Origin: Sinorhizobium arboris LMG 14919
Lineage (GTDB): Bacteria; Pseudomonadota; Alphaproteobacteria; Rhizobiales; Rhizobiaceae
DNA length: 64,000 nt
Direction of reading: 5' to 3'
NCBI RefSeq assembly: GCF_000427465.1
Contig: NZ_KE386497.1
Coordinates: forward strand, 727,318 to 791,317
Position 1 is the first letter of the stretch. Each line of letters begins with the position of its first letter. The notes below the pieces were generated by a model. It saw nothing but the letters and a program-made list of their open reading frames with translations. It did no database searches and was not told the DNA's origin. Of this stretch, positions 7,815-57,885 are shown one piece after another. The position numbers and the translations under genes were made by a program.

Positions 7815-8393
7815 GTGGTCCGTTACAATGCCGTCGAAGATCCGCTGTGCTATCCCGGCACCCATGTGCTGCGCAACAGGGCGGATATTCAGGATCAGAA
7901 CGAGCTGGATGAGTTCGAGCAACTAATGTTCGATTCCCGTGCGCGGGAAGCGCTTCCGGACGGCAATCTGGATTTCGCCCACTATCGCGCGTTACACCGA
8001 CACTTCTTCCAGGACGTTTATGAATGGGCCGGGCAAACACGGACTATCCGCACCGGCAAGGGTGAGAACTGGTTTTGCTATCCGGAATATATTGAAGGGG
8101 AAGCCAATCGCCTATTTGCCGAACTGGCCGCTCGCGACCACCTTGCCAGGACGGAAAGCAAGGATGCCTTCGCCGAAGGCGCAAGCTGGTTTCTCGCGGA
8201 GATCAACGCGATTCATCCATTTCGCGAAGGCAACGGCCGCATCCAACTGGTCTTCCTGACGATGCTCACCCGCAATGCGGGGTACGAGCTCGACGAGAGC
8301 AAGCTGGAGCCGAAGCGGTTTCTGGACGCCATGATCCGGAGCTTCAGCGGCGACCTGGCGCCGTTGGGCGCCGAAATCAGGCGGATGATTTAG
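7815..8393 (+). CDS. Fic domain protein with altered catalytic loop
   Basis: A 192-residue protein with the Fic fold. An N-terminal flap region (CYPGTHVLRNRADI) precedes helices ending in the active-site loop HPFREGNGR at 134-142. Fic enzymes usually transfer AMP from ATP to a target hydroxyl, with the His as base. The canonical motif continues xxR, and that arginine contacts the ATP phosphates; here the residues are I-Q-L, so the second arginine is Leu145. AMP transfer may be weakened or donor specificity changed. The start is a GTG 3 nt after the upstream small gene. The 3' end overlaps the converging gene by 17 nt. Confidence 0.85.
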   Translation: MVRYNAVEDPLCYPGTHVLRNRADIQDQNELDEFEQLMFDSRAREALPDGNLDFAHYRALHRHFFQDVYEWAGQTRTIRTGKGENWFCYPEYIEGEANRLFAELAARDHLARTESKDAFAEGASWFLAEINAIHPFREGNGRIQLVFLTMLTRNAGYELDESKLEPKRFLDAMIRSFSGDLAPLGAEIRRMI

Positions 8394-8872: not shown

Positions 8873-9844
8873 TTAATAGCGCGTCCCCTGAAGAGGGGCG
8901 ATAAGGATCGCCCATAGCAGTTCGGCGGCCCCTTCTTGTGAAAGTTTCTGATCGCGATCCCGCCCAAACGACGCCATGCCCATACTTGTCAAGTAGAGCG
9001 TCTGATCGTCGGCCTCGACGTTCAGGGACTCATTCGAGCTATTGCTGCTGGTCGTCTCACCGTGAACGTAATTGATGCCTCGTCCCCACGTCTCCCCACC
9101 CAGATAGACGGTGCCCCGTGCCACATCCTTGCCGTCGCGGTAGATGGTGGCGAAGAACCTGTTCGCGTCAACCCGTCGGAAAACGCCCTCGAAACCGGCG
9201 TTTCGCTCGCCAAGCTCCTTAAGGGAGTTCTCGAAAAAACGGGCAATGTATTCGAACGTGTCGTGTTTGAACTGGTCCTTGTCCCTTTGAGTGAAGCTCT
9301 TCGCGAGCCGCAGATTGCTCGACCGCGGGCCGAGGGATTGAGGAGCTGGCGACGCCGCAGGCGTAGCAGCCGCAGCGGCCCGTGCAGGCGGAGCCGAGAC
9401 CGTTCGGGTTACCCGCCCAGCTGCTTCGCGCACGGCCTTGGCGACTTGCAGGAAGGCCTCGTCGATATCGGGCCATTGTGTGATCGGTTTGCCGTCCCGA
9501 GGAACCGCATTCAGCTTTCCAAACGGCGCGTGGTGCCAGTCGCATGCCCGAAGAATGACGGGAATGACAATGGCTTCACCGCTGTGGTGGCGCTCCATCG
9601 CACGCTGCATTTCGATGTCGTAACAGTAATCCGAGGCTATGAAGTCGGCGCTGACGAGCAGCAGGATGATGTCGTCCGTATTGATGTGATCGTCAATCGC
9701 ACGATGGATATCTTCGCCGGCGCCGATGCGGCGGTCGTGCCAGGTCTCAATCACGCCCTGTCGTTTGAGCATGGACAACTGCTTTTCGAGTTGATCCCTC
9801 AGCCCCTCATCTGCGTGCGAATATGAAAAAAAGACGGTCGGCAT
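8873..9844 (-). CDS. TIR-domain protein
   Basis: A 323-residue protein. The ATG at 9844 is chosen because it has a strong GGGGGAG Shine-Dalgarno and begins directly at the TIR strand MPTVFFSYSHADE. The TIR domain spans about residues 1-140, with the box 1 SYSH motif, the WHDRRIGAGEDI loop and Glu78 (SDYCYDIE) as the likely catalytic glutamate of NAD-cleaving TIR enzymes. An Ala/Pro-rich linker (about 150-175) leads to a C-terminal domain of about 145 residues that I cannot name. TIR proteins of this layout often act in anti-phage immunity by depleting NAD. The small gene at 8377 is its operon partner. Confidence 0.85.
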   Translation of the reverse strand: MPTVFFSYSHADEGLRDQLEKQLSMLKRQGVIETWHDRRIGAGEDIHRAIDDHINTDDIILLLVSADFIASDYCYDIEMQRAMERHHSGEAIVIPVILRACDWHHAPFGKLNAVPRDGKPITQWPDIDEAFLQVAKAVREAAGRVTRTVSAPPARAAAAATPAASPAPQSLGPRSSNLRLAKSFTQRDKDQFKHDTFEYIARFFENSLKELGERNAGFEGVFRRVDANRFFATIYRDGKDVARGTVYLGGETWGRGINYVHGETTSSNSSNESLNVEADDQTLYLTSMGMASFGRDRDQKLSQEGAAELLWAILIAPLQGTRY

Positions 9845-10190
9845 GTCTCCCCCTTTGCTGCGCGGACTATGGGACGCTTCGCATCTGCATGACAAGATCT
9901 CTGTTTGTGTTTTTCCCGCTCCCCGTTCGGTCGCTTCAACACGCATTTACAGCTGACGCCTCCGGTTTCGGAGGCTGTGACCGGTTTGCGTCAGCCGTGG
10001 ATACGGCTGTCGTCTTGTTCATGCCCACCGCGCGTGTTCACGCGTGAGCGGTGTTCATGGCAGCCTCGATGCATGGCGGTTCCGCCCTTATGCATTTGGC
10101 TGCCTTGCGGTAGCGTTCACCGCCTGTGCGTTGAAATCCCGTTGATTTTCTAGGTTGCTATTCTCGCCATAGTTGAGCTGGGGCAAGAGT
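9845..10190. other. Intergenic stretch between TIR and mobilization genes
   Basis: No gene is supported here. It contains a hairpin GCCTCCG-GTTT-CGGAGGC at 9958-9975 and presumably the divergent promoters of the TIR operon and the coupling-protein gene. Confidence 0.4.
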
Positions 10191-10529
10191 GTGACTAATA
10201 AGTTTGATCCGTTCGGTGATCTCGAACGCGATTTCTCAAGCGCGCTAAAATGGGGACAATGGGGTCTCAAGGCGGGACGACACCTGATGGCCCGCTCGGC
10301 GAGGAGTCGGGCCGAGAAACTCTACGGTCCCGAGGTCGCCGATGCCGTCGAAGCGGCAGTCCGTGCCGGCCGCGATCCACGACCCATTATCGAGCGGACC
10401 AAGCGTGATCTTGCCGACCGCCGGGAGCGCGAGCGCCAGCTTATAGATCCGCCGCCGCTTTACGGCTCGGCCAAATGGCCGTCTTCGTCGGATCTCCAGC
10501 CATACCTTCGGAACAGGGATGCATTTTGA
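10191..10529 (+). pseudogene. Type IV coupling protein (VirD4/TraG type), N-terminal part cut off by a frameshift
   Basis: The GTG at 10191 opens a 112-residue frame (VTNKFDPFGDLERDF...) ending LQPYLRNRDAF-stop. The next frame continues with FDSPRSLLLGTF, and the two read as one coupling protein if a single T is removed from the TTTT at about 10525-10528. The ATG of the second frame lies in the same place, so the downstream part can still be translated alone. I interpret this as a +1 frameshift in a homopolymer, but natural overlapping genes cannot be excluded. Confidence 0.6.
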
Positions 10530-11769
10530 CAGTCCACGGTCCCTCCTGCTTGGAACGTTCAGCGACGACGCCGAGGCCACCCCAGCCGGCTTTGTCCATT
10601 GGGATGGTGACGGTCATCTCCTGACCATCGCCCCGACACGATCGGGAAAGGGCAAAACCACGATCATACCCAACCTGCTGCGCTATCAGGGCAGCTGCGT
10701 TGTGTTGGACCCCAAGGGAGAGCTGTTCGAGGCCACCTCGCAACGGCGGAGCAGGTTGGGGCCGGTGTACTGGATCGCTCCCCTGGACGAAGGTTCAGGC
10801 AAGCCCGTCCATCGCTTTGATCCCGTCAGTCGGGTGCGCCGGGAGGCAGATGCGCGCTCCATCGCGCAGCAAATGTTCCCGCGTGATCCGAAGTCGCCGT
10901 CGTTTTTTGCCGAAGACGCGGTCGGCTTCATGACGGCGGTCATCATGTTCGTACGCTACAAGGCGCCGCGGCACCGCCGGACACTGGCAACTGTCTGCCA
11001 AATGGCATCCCTGAAGGGTGCCAATCTTTCCCTGAAGGGTGCCAATCTTCTTAAAATCGCGAGGGAGATGGAAGCCTTTCCGCCATCTGCCGACGCGGCG
11101 CGCGCCATCCTTGAGAAGGATGCGCAGCGTGGACTGAAGGTCCTGCAGGAGACCCTGAGCAGCAAGCTGTATGAATGGAAGGCCTATGCTATCGGCGCTC
11201 ATGCCAACAGCGCCCTTGTCGTGATCGGCCAGCCACTGATCGATTCCCTGAGTGAGGCCGAAGTGAATGCGATTATCGGCCACGAATTGGGGCATATCGC
11301 CAACAATGATATGCGCCGCATGGGATTGGCCCGATCATTCCAGAGCTCGCTGGTCTGGTATCTTGGCTTCTCCAATACCCTTCAGCGTTGGGGTCGTTGG
11401 ACCCTAACCTGGCTGTCGGAACTCTTCGTGCTGCGCCTCTCGCGCAAACGCGAATACTGGGCCGACGCCATCGGCGCTACCCTTAGGAGTAAGGAACTCA
11501 TGATCGCCGCACTGGAAAGACGGCATAACGGCCCGGAAATGAGCGCCTTCGAACGTCAACACGCTCGCCTCATGTTCCGTGGCCGAGCCTCCGGCTCGCT
11601 CTTTTCTACGCATCCGACGCTGGAGGAGCGACGGTCGGCTCTCGAAGCGGAGACCTATCTCAAACGCATTCCGCTGCTACCGAGGCGGGACGACGTGCCC
11701 TTAGGGCGAACGATGGTGCAGCCGAAGGCAGGCGACATTGCGTACGCTACGAAAGATATCCGGCTCTGA
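10519..11769 (+). CDS. Chimera: coupling-protein ATPase fragment fused to an M48 metallopeptidase domain
   Basis: A 416-residue frame. Residues 1 to about 220 are the nucleotide-binding part of a VirD4/TraG coupling protein, with Walker A APTRSGKGKT at 38-47 and CVVLDPKGEL at 60-69. From about residue 221 it becomes an M48 zinc peptidase: HELGH at 255-259 supplies the zinc histidines and catalytic Glu, and REYWAD near 311-316 supplies the third ligand. The M48 part lacks the usual N-terminal membrane segments, and the coupling protein lacks its C-terminal half including Walker B. This is an in-frame recombination product, near nt 11179. Whether it is expressed is unknown. Confidence 0.75.
   Translation: MHFDSPRSLLLGTFSDDAEATPAGFVHWDGDGHLLTIAPTRSGKGKTTIIPNLLRYQGSCVVLDPKGELFEATSQRRSRLGPVYWIAPLDEGSGKPVHRFDPVSRVRREADARSIAQQMFPRDPKSPSFFAEDAVGFMTAVIMFVRYKAPRHRRTLATVCQMASLKGANLSLKGANLLKIAREMEAFPPSADAARAILEKDAQRGLKVLQETLSSKLYEWKAYAIGAHANSALVVIGQPLIDSLSEAEVNAIIGHELGHIANNDMRRMGLARSFQSSLVWYLGFSNTLQRWGRWTLTWLSELFVLRLSRKREYWADAIGATLRSKELMIAALERRHNGPEMSAFERQHARLMFRGRASGSLFSTHPTLEERRSALEAETYLKRIPLLPRRDDVPLGRTMVQPKAGDIAYATKDIRL
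11008..11049 (+). repeat. Two perfect 21-bp tandem copies inside the chimeric gene
   Basis: The unit at 11008-11028 (TCCCTGAAGGGTGCCAATCT plus T) is repeated exactly at 11029-11049. It duplicates seven residues, SLKGANL, in frame within the coupling-protein part. A recent slippage duplication is likely because no differences have accumulated. Confidence 0.9.
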
Positions 11770-12604: not shown

Positions 12605-13687
12605 CTACTTGCGGCTGCGCTCGGGCTCGTGCCAGACGCCGTCCTCCGCAGGTGACGCGGGCTGGCGCTGATCAAGCTCCAGCCAGTCGAGGTGATTTTC
12701 CCAGCGTTCGAGAACCTTCAGATCAGCCGCATCGTCCGGCATCGCCGACGCGCCTAGCCAGTCGAGCATATGTTCCGGCGCCAGGCGGTAGGCGGCCGCC
12801 TCATCTTCACTCATCTCCCGAGTGTTTTGGCGCTCGACCGTCGCACGCGCGAGCTCAGGGTTGCCGTCCTGACTGCCTTGAACGACTTGCACATGGCGAT
12901 GCATTTCATCCTGCATCCGTGCTTCCGCTACTTCCAATTCGCGCGGATGAATCGGAGAACCATCAGGATCAGGATCAGGATCAGGAACGGGCAGGTCACT
13001 GTCAGAGTCTCCGGGTCTCATCTGCTCTCTCTCCTTGCGTGCGCGGACACGACGCATCCGCCGTTCCTCCGGGTTCGGTCCGCGATGCCGACTCGGCGTC
13101 CGATCCAAATTGCGTTTGGCATAGCTGCGACTCGATGCTGACGGAAACCCCCGCCTTTCTCAGCGCCTCGTTGGCACACGCTCCCAAAGACTCCGCGCAT
13201 CCGCCACGAACTGACGCCCATCCGCACTGCGGATCTTCGGCCCAAATCCATCAGCCGTGATCACACGCGTCGTCATGAGAAGGTGAACATGCGGATTATG
13301 CCGGGTGCCGTCCTCGTGAATTGCCAGATCGACAGCAAACTCTTGAGCTGCATAGGCATCGGCCATGATGCGAGCGACAGTCAACCATGCGGAAGGTGGC
13401 AATTCGACCGGGAGCGCGAACTTCACCTCTTTGGCTAGACGCGCGTCCTTGCGTATTTCGGCGGTCTCGACCGCGTTCCAGAGCTGCGCGCGATCGGCCA
13501 TCCAGCGCGGCGCATTTTCGGGAAGCCGGATTTCGTTGGCGACAACGTCACGCCTCCCGCCGAATTCCGAACGGCGTTCTTCGGCTTCGTTCGGCAGCGT
13601 CTCTCCCGCCCGGTAGGCTGCCGCCGCGACGATCGAGCGTCCATCGCCCCGGCTGATGTTCTTCACATTCAGGTGGTAGATAGCCAC
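12605..13687 (-). pseudogene. MobA/MobL-family relaxase, broken by two frameshifts
   Basis: The GTG at 13687 follows a GAGGAG Shine-Dalgarno and opens VAIYHLNVKNISRGDG, the typical MobA/MobL start. Conserved AAAAYRAGE and the metal-binding HNPHVHLL segment follow, then LWER just before the first frameshift near 13183. The next frame gives CANEALRKAGVSVSIES to a second frameshift near 13135. The third frame runs YAKRNLDRTPSRHRGPNPEER to the stop at 12605. Relaxases nick oriT and pilot the strand during mobilization. This copy would make only a truncated nicking domain. The C-terminus also contains an Asp-Pro run (VPDPDPDPDG). Confidence 0.8.
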
Positions 13688-13801
13688 CAGCCACTCCTCG
13701 GCACGGACGGGGTCCAGGGGTTTCCCCTGGCGCACTTGCCGGCTTTCTCCGGACGCTGTGCGGACGGTTAGAAAGCCGTGCAACGCATCGCCTCTCTAGC
13801 C

Positions 13802-13976: not shown

Positions 13977-14266
13977 GCGGACGTGGTGGAATTGGTAGAC
14001 ACAAGGGACTTAGACGCAATTTGAGTGCACCGGCGGAAACGCTGGCTGTAGAACTGCTCAAAGTCGGGGAAACCTGTCAGATGGCGATCCCGAGCCAAGC
14101 CTCGTCAGGGGAAGGTGTAGAGACTAGACGGGCAGCACCTAAGGCGAAAGCTAAGGTGAAGGTATAGTCCAGACCACAAACGCCGGAAGGCGGCGGCGAA
14201 AGCCGTAGCTGGTAAGAAAATCCCTCGCCCTTGGCTGTGCGGGTTCGAGTCCCGCCGTCCGCACCA
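13977..14266 (+). tRNA. tRNA-Leu(UAA), interrupted by a group I intron
   Basis: The 5' exon is 13977-14011 and the 3' exon 14217-14266, including encoded CCA. Joined, they form an 85-nt class II tRNA with acceptor GCGGACG/CGTCCGC, T arm GCGGGTTCGAGTCCCGC and anticodon arm GGGA-CTTAAAA-TCCC, anticodon UAA for leucine. The interruption falls between U34 and A35, the same site as in cyanobacterial tRNA-Leu(UAA). The tRNA points toward a decayed integrase gene, and tRNA 3' ends are usual integration sites. Confidence 0.93.
14012..14216 (+). ncRNA. Group I intron (IC3-like) in the tRNA-Leu anticodon loop
   Basis: The intron is 205 nt and encodes no protein. Its 5' end contains GAGT at 14023-14026, which pairs with exon ACTT to form P1 with the diagnostic U-G wobble at the 5' splice site (U14011 with G14023). 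Conserved core segments are present: GTGTAGAGACTAGA at 14115-14128 matches the R element and AAGGTATAGTCC at 14159-14170 the S element; AATCCCGAGCC-like sequence before them fits P4/Q. The final base is the expected G at 14216. Introns of this class self-splice using guanosine. All segments a small ribozyme needs appear intact. Confidence 0.9.
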
Positions 14267-14959: not shown

Positions 14960-15785
14960 TCAGACTAACTCGCTTGACTGCCGGTGCGCATTCCGCTTGG
15001 CGTGTTCGATAATCTGCTTCTTGGATTTGGCTTTGCGTCTCACATTCACCGCCGCAGCACTGATGCTGGTCGAGATATGCGACGCATAGTACTTCTCGAT
15101 CATCTCCACGCTCGTCCGGCAATTCTTGGCGATCTGGTAGATATCCGCGCCTTCCATGAGCCGGAGGCATATGTAGGTGTGGCGTAGGCTATAAGCCGTA
15201 CGGCGACTGCCCTCTCGATCAAATTTCAGACCTTCTTCCTCCAAAATCTTGTTGAACATCATCATGTGATTGTCAGCGAAAATCGGGTCATCCGGCTTCG
15301 GCTCATTCCGCTTGAGAAGCCGCTCGAAGGGAAAAACGGCGTTGGTCGTGCTCTTGCAATAACCCACACCACGTTTGCCGCGCACCTGGATGAGGAGGAT
15401 GGTTTCACCCGTTTCCTCATCCTCGACGATTTCGACGTCCCGATACTGGAGCCGTTTAGCTTCATCGGGACGTAGGCCAGTGTTGGTCATAAAGAGAACG
15501 TAGTCGTGCAGCTGTTCAGAATGCCAGGCGAACCGCTTGGTATTCCTCTAAATACCGTTTGGCCGCCTCCTTGAAGGTCTTCTCGTCCTTCAGTCCGCCG
15601 CCTTTCTCCTTTGCCTTCATCCGGGAAAACCAGTCCTCCGCGAATTCCTTCGCGAGGGCGAGACTTTCCTCGCCCGTGCTCGTCCGCCAATTCTTGCCGT
15701 TGATACGGGTCGAGCACTGCCACTTTTTACTGTTCTCGCGGCGATAGACGAGGACCTTGCCTCCCAAAATCTCATGACTGGCCAT
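14960..15785 (-). pseudogene. Tyrosine recombinase (phage-type integrase) with internal deletion
   Basis: The N-terminal part starts at the ATG at 15785 (MASHEILGGKVLVYRRENSK), the arm-binding region. It ends near 15530, where the frame shifts into the catalytic domain starting QLHDYVLFMTNTGLRPDEAKRL. The catalytic domain keeps Arg (TGLRPDEA), the SLRHTY box and the nucleophilic Tyr (MIEKYYASH). Most of the core-binding domain between them, about 100 or more residues, is deleted and the halves are out of frame. The gene faces the tRNA-Leu, the expected arrangement for an element integrated at that tRNA. It cannot make a working integrase. Confidence 0.8.
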
Positions 15786-15996
15786 TCTTTTAAACCCACC
15801 CTTGCGTTCCGAAAGCGGCGCCAGACTGTGTATGAGATGTGTACGCCGAAATGGCGGAGAAATTACGGCATTAAAAAAGTAACTATTTGTTTTCACATCA
15901 GAAAAATTCTAGAAAGCTACCGTACAGCCTAAGCCAGAGGGATTTAAAGCCTACAACCGGGTAACTCAGTGAGCCCAAATGCGCTCGTGGCCGGAC

Positions 15997-17153: not shown

Positions 17154-17300
17154 AAAATTTCGTCGCCCTCTTGAAACTCGAAAAGCCAGAAACCAGATCG
17201 ATTGGCGCGATGCCAAAACATCGTGCGTCCCGCGTCGGATTCGCATCGGATGCGGCGCCGAGGATCCTCTAAAAATGTGTTTGTCAACGAGGAGAGCAAC

Positions 17301-19299
<1,999 letters not shown>

Positions 19300-57710: not shown

Positions 57711-57869
57711 CCATCTGTCCTTGGTACCTGAGAGCTTCCCGCAGGTGCGGTATCCCCTTCGGTGGGCATTGCTGCCACTCTCCAGATTTTCCAGCTATGC
57801 GGTCCTTTTGCCTGAGAGATTCTGGGGAATTGCTCCATCGGCGTCGCTTGGCGATCTCTCCCGCACACC
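57711..57869 (-). promoter_or_regulatory. Tandem glycine riboswitch controlling the DadA-like gene
   Basis: Read on the minus strand, aptamer 1 runs from GCGGGAGAG through a GCCGATGGAGCAA stem to CTCTCAGGCAAAAGGACCG. Aptamer 2 follows as TCTGGAGAG, CACCGAAGGGG and CTCTCAGGTACCAAGGACAG. These are the conserved gcvT-type glycine aptamer segments. The following 40 nt contain CTGTCCTT just before the GGAG ribosome-binding site; it is perfectly complementary to the AAGGACAG that ends aptamer 2 (57722-57715 pairs with 57677-57670). This gives a switchable hairpin, so control is probably translational. Confidence 0.92.
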
Positions 57870-57885
57870 CTTTCGGAAACTCTAT

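Follow-up and report, generated by a model that had tools for sequence, protein, structure and literature searches.

A decayed integrative element of Sinorhizobium arboris carries a spare tRNA-Leu(UAA) gene whose group I intron may shield it from the integrase

In cyanobacteria and plastids, tRNA-Leu(UAA) genes carry group I introns at the same insertion site as the intron described here, and we know of no settled answer as to why small group I introns persist in the anticodon loops of bacterial tRNA genes. According to the available part of a published report (PMC7717549), alphaproteobacterial tRNA-Arg(CCU) genes also contain introns, and that of Bartonella splices in vivo and in vitro. The cyanobacterial, plastid and tRNA-Arg(CCU) introns are likewise small group I introns of tRNA genes; as far as this source goes, they belong to resident host genes, whereas the one studied here is cargo of an integrase-encoding element. 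In archaea, tRNA introns have been proposed to act as a protection from integration (PMC3293823, available part). As in the model developed below, the archaeal proposal has an element-borne intron in a tRNA attachment site that could keep other elements out. However, according to the same excerpt, archaeal introns are removed by protein enzymes and are gained in the attachment site itself, whereas here a group I intron is carried by a separate cargo gene.

The crossover sites of tRNA-associated islands are located at three places of the gene, one of them being the anticodon loop, and Islander lists 2083 such islands (PMC4383910, available part). Tyrosine integrases typically cut at points 6-8 bp apart, and replacement tRNAs have been established experimentally in actinophages (Guerrero-Bustamante and Hatfull 2024, PMC10865867, available part). 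Three features distinguish the present case from this tRNA-dependent lysogeny: the element of the window and of an intact relative (G419, see below) has a relaxase and a coupling protein, related integrases with this arrangement are found in other phyla (see below), and the UAA cargo has a group I intron in the crossover loop. In prophages of Sinorhizobium meliloti, the host tRNA gene is also said to be replaced by a prophage-borne one (PMC11476347, PMC12429752, excerpts). In these excerpts, a Leu(UAG) tRNA is listed for the Lo5R7ANS-like prophages, unlike the UAA here, and the phiLM21-like prophages, some of which are integrated at tRNA-Leu(UAA), rebuild the gene, unlike here. The word 'intron' is absent from the available texts of both papers and appears in that of PMC10865867 only within a reference title. 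Tycheposons were considered as relatives and set aside, since the accessible text places their tRNAs at island borders and does not describe them as split and replaced (PMC10872708). Our literature search, with subscription papers and preprints mostly outside its range, did not turn up any published case in which a replacement tRNA carried by an integrative element contains an intron. Replacement tRNAs are already known, and the intron-bearing variant is apparently the new part.

The window, i.e. the whole stretch of 64,000 nucleotides of S. arboris LMG 14919 that was analysed, is located on contig C5 (0.8 Mb). The features of interest are listed below with reference to the islands of G419, a genome of the same family, and of the congener G015.

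7815..8390, + strand: Fic/Doc-family protein, common to the G015 and G419 islands
8876..9946, - strand: TIR-domain protein, whose G419 relative matches ThsB
10519..11766, + strand: truncated coupling protein (T4SS-DNA_transf) fused into an M48 peptidase, separate genes in G419
13163..13783, - strand: MobA/MobL relaxase fragment (Pfam PF03389, 4e-42), at the same position as in the G419 island
13977..14011, + strand: tRNA-Leu(UAA) 5' exon, last base U34 (direct reading, ARAGORN)
14012..14216, + strand: group I intron of 205 nt, last base G (Rfam, ARAGORN, alignment of 18 introns)
14217..14266, + strand: tRNA-Leu(UAA) 3' exon, CCA encoded (direct reading, ARAGORN)
14978..15538, - strand: integrase remnant, C-terminal part (residues 221-407 of the G419 integrase, 86.6% identical)
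15531..15785, - strand: same integrase remnant, N-terminal part (residues 1-85 of the G419 integrase, 95.3% identical)
15920..15951, - strand: attachment-site remnant (27/30 aligned bases identical to native tRNA-Leu(UAA))

Once joined, exons 13977-14011 and 14217-14266 fold according to ARAGORN as an 85-nt tRNA-Leu(UAA), as stated by the original prediction. The same program found zero tRNA in the window without introns and, with introns allowed, gave tRNA-Leu(taa) [13977,14266] with an intron of 205. A search of the window with the Rfam group I model, a check proposed by the prediction, yielded a match to RF00028 at 14002-14195 (50.5 bits, E 7e-10), barely above the cut-off of 50 bits; this is the sole RF00028 match genome-wide at E <= 0.001 (E 1.8e-11). 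The predicted group I nature of the insert is also borne out by an alignment of 18 related introns, in which 18 of the 56 predicted pairs display at least one two-sided compensatory change and a large part of the core does not vary. The exon sequence GACTT and the intron sequence TGAGTGC are common to 18/18 introns, the P1 U.G is present and the terminal G was read directly in the window. A model built from 18 introns (R1) scores the window intron, itself part of the training set, at 238.5 bits. The insertion between U34 and A35, predicted as well, follows from direct reading and ARAGORN, and 34/35 is the site in 39/39 Leu(UAA) introns resolved by a parser that required a terminal G. These data confirm that the tRNA-Leu(UAA) gene at 13977-14266 is interrupted at U34/A35 by a group I intron of 205 nt. 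In several intron-bearing Leu genes, the type assigned by ARAGORN is Ser, Phe, His or Stop, and three such 'Ser' types were corrected by eye.

The integrase remnant announced beside this tRNA is real, but it consists of two pieces of a tyrosine integrase, residues 86-220 (about 400 bp) being gone between them. Moreover, the relaxase and the coupling protein are shorter in the window than in G419. The match of the attachment-site remnant runs from CTTAAAA into the variable and T arm of native tRNA-Leu(UAA), with no tRNA 5' half beside 15920-15951. Its score was equalled by 0/1933 random 100-mers of the window, a draw from which the cargo's own 3' exon, which ranks second, had been left out. From 15865 to 7121, the window is collinear with the G419 island in five blocks of 72-86% identity. 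Since the integrase is in pieces, the relaxase and coupling protein are shortened and the attachment site is a remnant, we conclude that the window holds a decayed integrative element with an intact-looking tRNA. The suggestion of the original prediction that the neighbouring integrase may have used the intron-bearing tRNA itself as its attachment site (attB) had to be abandoned: the attachment remnant is located elsewhere, on the other side of the integrase, and in G419 it is another tRNA-Leu(UAA), devoid of an intron, that is split, the intron copy being cargo inside the element. Near the element, groES- and groEL-like genes were recognized by eye from translations at 17202-19299, and a glycine riboswitch is present at 57790-57873 (63.8 bits).

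In G419, the halves of the native tRNA-Leu(UAA) are 38 kb apart, between ilvA and cinA, the split point is the anticodon loop and the intron-bearing tRNA is the sole complete copy found. Next to the 5' half, the island encodes a 407-aa tyrosine integrase (its Phage_integrase match is below the Pfam cut-off, E 1e-4), which is followed by the intron tRNA and the genes for a MobA/MobL relaxase, a coupling protein and TIR and Fic proteins; another integrase is encoded close to the opposite end. Neither attL nor attR alone gives a tRNA, whereas the two halves, once joined, fold as tRNA-Leu(UAA). The target tRNA of G419 was therefore split without being rebuilt; the window itself shows only a remnant. 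In Edaphobacter lichenicola M8US30, the gene is split by about 33 kb and the joined halves are, letter for letter, the intact gene of strain M8UP30 (empty site). As a side observation, the TIR protein of the G419 island (L148:15143-16102) matches ThsB of the Thoeris defence system (PADLOC 1.5e-145).

The host of the window has 46 tRNAs above the Rfam cut-off, all off C5 (45 on C4 and one on C2), and five tRNA-Leu genes on C4 include an intronless UAA. The intron-bearing copy is not the resident gene of the host and, since another intact Leu(UAA) is present, it is not needed by this host, in which the element is broken. At the C4 locus (L087:7989-9447), the 5' and 3' halves of the native tRNA-Leu(UAA), which fold as tRNA-Leu(UAA) when joined, are 1.4 kb apart. 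They enclose a further tRNA-Leu(UAA), which has no intron and points the other way; in its anticodon stem, one base pair is changed on both sides. It seems that the gene on C4 was replaced by an intronless one and that C5 harbors a second, intron-bearing spare. An integrase-like short frame was noticed by eye inside the 1.4-kb remnant (no Pfam match), and the locus of G019 (L104) looks alike.

A query made of exons and intron matched the intron in 2 of 32 congeners, G015 (95% identity) and G010 (3' part, broken), and an uninterrupted tRNA-Leu(UAA) was found in 10/10 congeners given to the pattern search. Among 15 congener loci around tRNA-Leu(UAA), cinA lies within the stretch in all 15 and ilvA in 11. 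In G015, the 3' half of the native tRNA is near ilvA, a search for the native 5' half was negative, and the intron copy, ~5 kb off in opposite orientation, is the single tRNA-Leu(UAA) detected in complete form. The intron gene is opposite to the native halves in both G015 and G419, a within-genome comparison possible only in these two and for a 33-nt fragment in G249. Replacement was not read from the orientation of the intron gene relative to cinA/ilvA, the native halves of G419 being themselves reversed relative to congeners. At the same chromosomal tRNA-Leu(UAA), G008 (L108) carries a 9.6-kb island in the classic arrangement, in which the tRNA is rebuilt and the old 3' half displaced.

The original prediction had raised the question of vertical descent or transfer. 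The distribution among congeners just described favours acquisition of the intron copy by transfer with the element. Three genomes, G034, G160 and G380, do have an intron-bearing Leu(UAA) near cinA, with no other copy in G034 or G160 by pattern search (G380 was outside this search). They could suggest that the window gene is an ordinary chromosomal tRNA-Leu(UAA) whose intron was inherited vertically and which was copied to the second replicon as a passenger. This is most improbable: apart from the intronless gene in all ten congeners given to the pattern search, the window copy is collinear with an integrative island, which would otherwise require a coincidence, and the nearest introns by path are those of G419 and G015, in both of which the native gene is broken.

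We propose the following mechanism. In intact relatives, a tyrosine integrase would insert the element by recombination at the anticodon loop of a tRNA-Leu gene of the host, which is split and not rebuilt. For this reason, the element would bring along a complete tRNA-Leu with a matching anticodon, in most cases encoded shortly downstream of the integrase. For a UAA target, this cargo would be interrupted by a group I intron at U34/A35, within the very loop at which the target is split. We infer that the intron splices from the transcript, giving a working tRNA that the host needs, and that it plays a shielding role: the cargo DNA would lack an uninterrupted crossover site, so that neither the element itself nor a relative should integrate there. 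We consider this mechanism probable; in the decayed element of the window, the intron would shield the spare tRNA-Leu(UAA) from the integrase.

The split targets, cargo, anticodon matching and intron position can be read directly from related loci. The G419 integrase was searched against GTDB contigs, and the best 80 of 192 confirmed loci were used. A tRNA-Leu(UAA) 5' half ending in the anticodon loop is found shortly upstream of the integrase in 36 of these best 80 loci (33 by script and 3 by eye, one being cut by the contig start); 29 others split tRNA-Leu(CAA) and 15 have neither a UAA nor a CAA half. Intron-bearing tRNA-Leu(UAA) cargo is present in 32/36 UAA-split loci, and no intronless UAA cargo was seen among the 36. 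The intron-bearing cargo mostly shares the strand of the integrase gene and begins 1.2-1.35 kb from the start of that gene; in L176-L178, it is reversed and at a distance of 3.5-6.5 kb. Among the four loci without cargo, L179 and L216 end early and L233 and L238 have none over 10 kb. Both exons are readable in 27 of the 32 cargos; L192, L193, L196 and L215 end inside the cargo gene and L210 has Ns. Locus L196 reaches ~7 nt into the intron, which is present in its near-identical relative L200.

The 29 CAA-split loci include 12 with an intronless tRNA-Leu(CAA) cargo, one (L221) with an intron-bearing Leu(CAA), one (L255) with a degenerate copy and 14 in which no cargo was found (13 of these from Acidobacteria). 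The group I intron of L221 (L221:11429-11662) is located at 33/34 of tRNA-Leu(CAA), one base off the usual site. Locus L250 splits Leu(CAA) yet carries a UAA-type 5' exon with intron, the 3' exon lying past the contig end. The anticodons of target and cargo agree in 40/40 fully readable pairs (27 UAA and 13 CAA), and L250, cut off by the contig end, appears to be the one disagreeing pair. This agreement would be left unexplained if the extra tRNA were a decoy or supplement against tRNA-cutting nucleases, or served codon usage. Such roles have been proposed for phage tRNAs (PMC10865867, available part); we consider them extremely unlikely here.

The other 15 loci are heterogeneous: two have Leu(UAG) with a UAG-type core, three Leu(CAA) beside attP-like cores, one (L205) a Leu(UAA) cargo that has no intron and adjoins an attP-like core and one (L200, which begins at a contig end) a UAA intron cargo; another six lack a Leu cargo, and an intact Met, Arg, Phe or Thr tRNA lies immediately upstream, and L229 and L184 have a Met half and an Arg-like half. 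Attachment types were assigned by eye for L227, L254, L233, L197, L206, L211, L212, L236, L205, L229 and L184. This layout is shared by related integrases of Pseudomonadota, Acidobacteriota and one Binatota bin. Among 50,697 phage records, none contains a relative of the integrase that covers 80% of the query. Annotation covered the window and G419, both of which encode a relaxase and a coupling protein.

Some data speak against the model: the intronless Leu(UAA) cargo of L205, the lack of cargo in the UAA-split L233 and L238, the apparent mismatch in L250, the lack of intron in most CAA cargos, the dispensability of the window copy for its host and, as described below, the second Leu(UAA) gene of three UAA-split hosts, the small share of intron loci with this integrase nearby and the doubtful function of the Daredevil tRNA. 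Conversely, the exact 5-nt anticodon stem of the target is kept in 8/29 measured intron cargos versus 0/12 intronless ones, near relatives being counted singly and some of the eight being near relatives. These eight intron cargos would therefore resemble the target without their intron. Since native (unsplit) Leu(CAA) stems vary widely and shuffles of the CAA pairs reveal no excess of stem avoidance (0.34 identical stems expected versus 0 observed), this contrast is only suggestive of shielding. For the same reasons, the idea that intronless Leu(CAA) cargos were specially mutated to escape the integrase was not upheld.

Is the native tRNA really replaced? When 29 UAA-split hosts were searched with an uninterrupted Leu(UAA) pattern, which can miss genes, many hosts also being incomplete bins, eight matched. 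All eight were examined and correspond to four attachment junctions without a tRNA gene, one AT-rich organelle-like cluster and three real genes. Hence, a convincing second Leu(UAA) gene exists in 3/29 UAA-split hosts, including that of L238, which has no cargo. For 16 CAA-split hosts, there were 11 pattern matches, of which the two examined are both real genes. Moreover, in 13 of 15 family genomes with this intron in a tRNA-Leu (one copy broken, G010), the pattern search detected no further complete Leu(UAA). UUA codons are read only by the UAA anticodon, whereas UUG is also readable by it, which fits the frequent lack of cargo in CAA-split elements.

In the integrase tree, loci of the UAA/intron type are interleaved with those of the CAA/intronless type, with 16 changes of the UAA/intron label by a quick method, at least 8 of them forced by starred branches. 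Because of these forced changes, it would be difficult to account for the joint occurrence of target, cargo and intron by a single founder followed by simple descent, although the intron as such may have arisen once, long ago. The interleaving also argues against an explanation in which the replacement tRNA is real and the intron a passenger, the ancestral element having taken a Leu(UAA) that already bore it and kept it by descent, with no blocking role. The lack of intronless UAA cargo in all UAA-split loci and the same arrangement in a phage with a different integrase (Daredevil, see below) speak against it as well. It has in its favour that cargo introns are mixed with those of non-element tRNA-Leu genes in one intron tree, that group I introns in bacterial tRNA genes have long been known (PMC3984707, available part) and that intronless cargo exists in the 12 CAA-split loci. 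On balance, we hold this passenger scenario to be rather unlikely.

In the intron tree, the rows nearest to the window by path are the G419, G015 and Rhizobium pisi copies, and the cargo introns of L198, L209 and L223, which are acidobacterial, are placed among those of alphaproteobacteria; deep forks are weak in both this and the integrase tree, and the window is in no starred set up to half the intron-tree rows. A class-wide intron search matched 49/385 genomes. The best 30 loci of this survey were typed (likewise the best 30 in the family survey), and the integrase lies within about 1.5 kb in five of them (window included), all Leu(UAA). Many such introns are currently without a visible element and could be either relics of elements or their source. 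In L293, L299 and other class-survey loci, R1 matches inserts in genes that ARAGORN types as tRNA-Lys, Thr and others (putative types).

Furthermore, 1286 plasmid records match the intron-bearing tRNA. Three were examined, from Citrobacter, E. coli and Acinetobacter resistance plasmids (L062, L063, L064), and have a full-length match to the intron-bearing tRNA-Leu(UAA); in L062 and L064, the intron clusters with copies from the rhizobial family. All three copies lie no more than about 2.5 kb from aac(3)-IId and may thus have hitchhiked. A general spread of the gene on enterobacterial plasmids was therefore not retained, on the basis of these three of the 1286.

Gordonia phage Daredevil (NC_048021; L117:2883-3194) carries a tRNA-Lys(UUU) with a 238-nt insert at 34/35. 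This tRNA is 165 bp from a core matching its anticodon arm, and the integrase lies on the far side of that core. The insert has no Rfam match at E 0.001, a score of 153 bits with R1 and a blastn match of its core to the window intron (E 2e-16). It would be an independent parallel to an intron-bearing replacement tRNA near an integrase. Daredevil has been reported to form clear plaques and to be without its own tRNA (PMC10865867, available part). Its intron-bearing tRNA, whose T loop begins with A, may be defective or non-working, in keeping with the clear plaques. No cargo Lys tRNA was found near the integrase in three mycobacteriophage integrase regions. Other phage sequences gave observations of a different kind: in uncultured phage LR756511 (L116:2368-3154), a group I-like intron of 700 nt interrupts a tRNA-Leu(UAA), in LR756501 (L115), a tRNA-Leu(UAA) with an intron is surrounded by numerous tRNA genes, and the matches in HTVC120P and KM23-C739 were discarded, being between capsid-gene pieces and not in tRNAs.

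It is conceivable, although we put this forward tentatively, that anticodon-loop group I introns of bacteria persist and spread by shielding tRNA genes from tyrosine integrases with a crossover in this loop, that elements which destroy the tRNA-Leu(UAA) of their host carry intron-shielded substitutes and that the resident intron-bearing tRNA-Leu genes of rhizobia are partly such substitutes, left over from decayed elements. Cargo tRNAs are missed where annotation disallows introns, and Daredevil may be such a case. The proposed mechanism would provide a testable answer to the question of intron persistence: because of the intron, an essential tRNA gene could no longer serve for integration. 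Moreover, tRNA-dependent integration, so far described for phages, would also apply to an element with conjugation-type genes and to related integrases of other phyla. The case also illustrates how an integrative element may swap an essential tRNA of its host for a foreign one.
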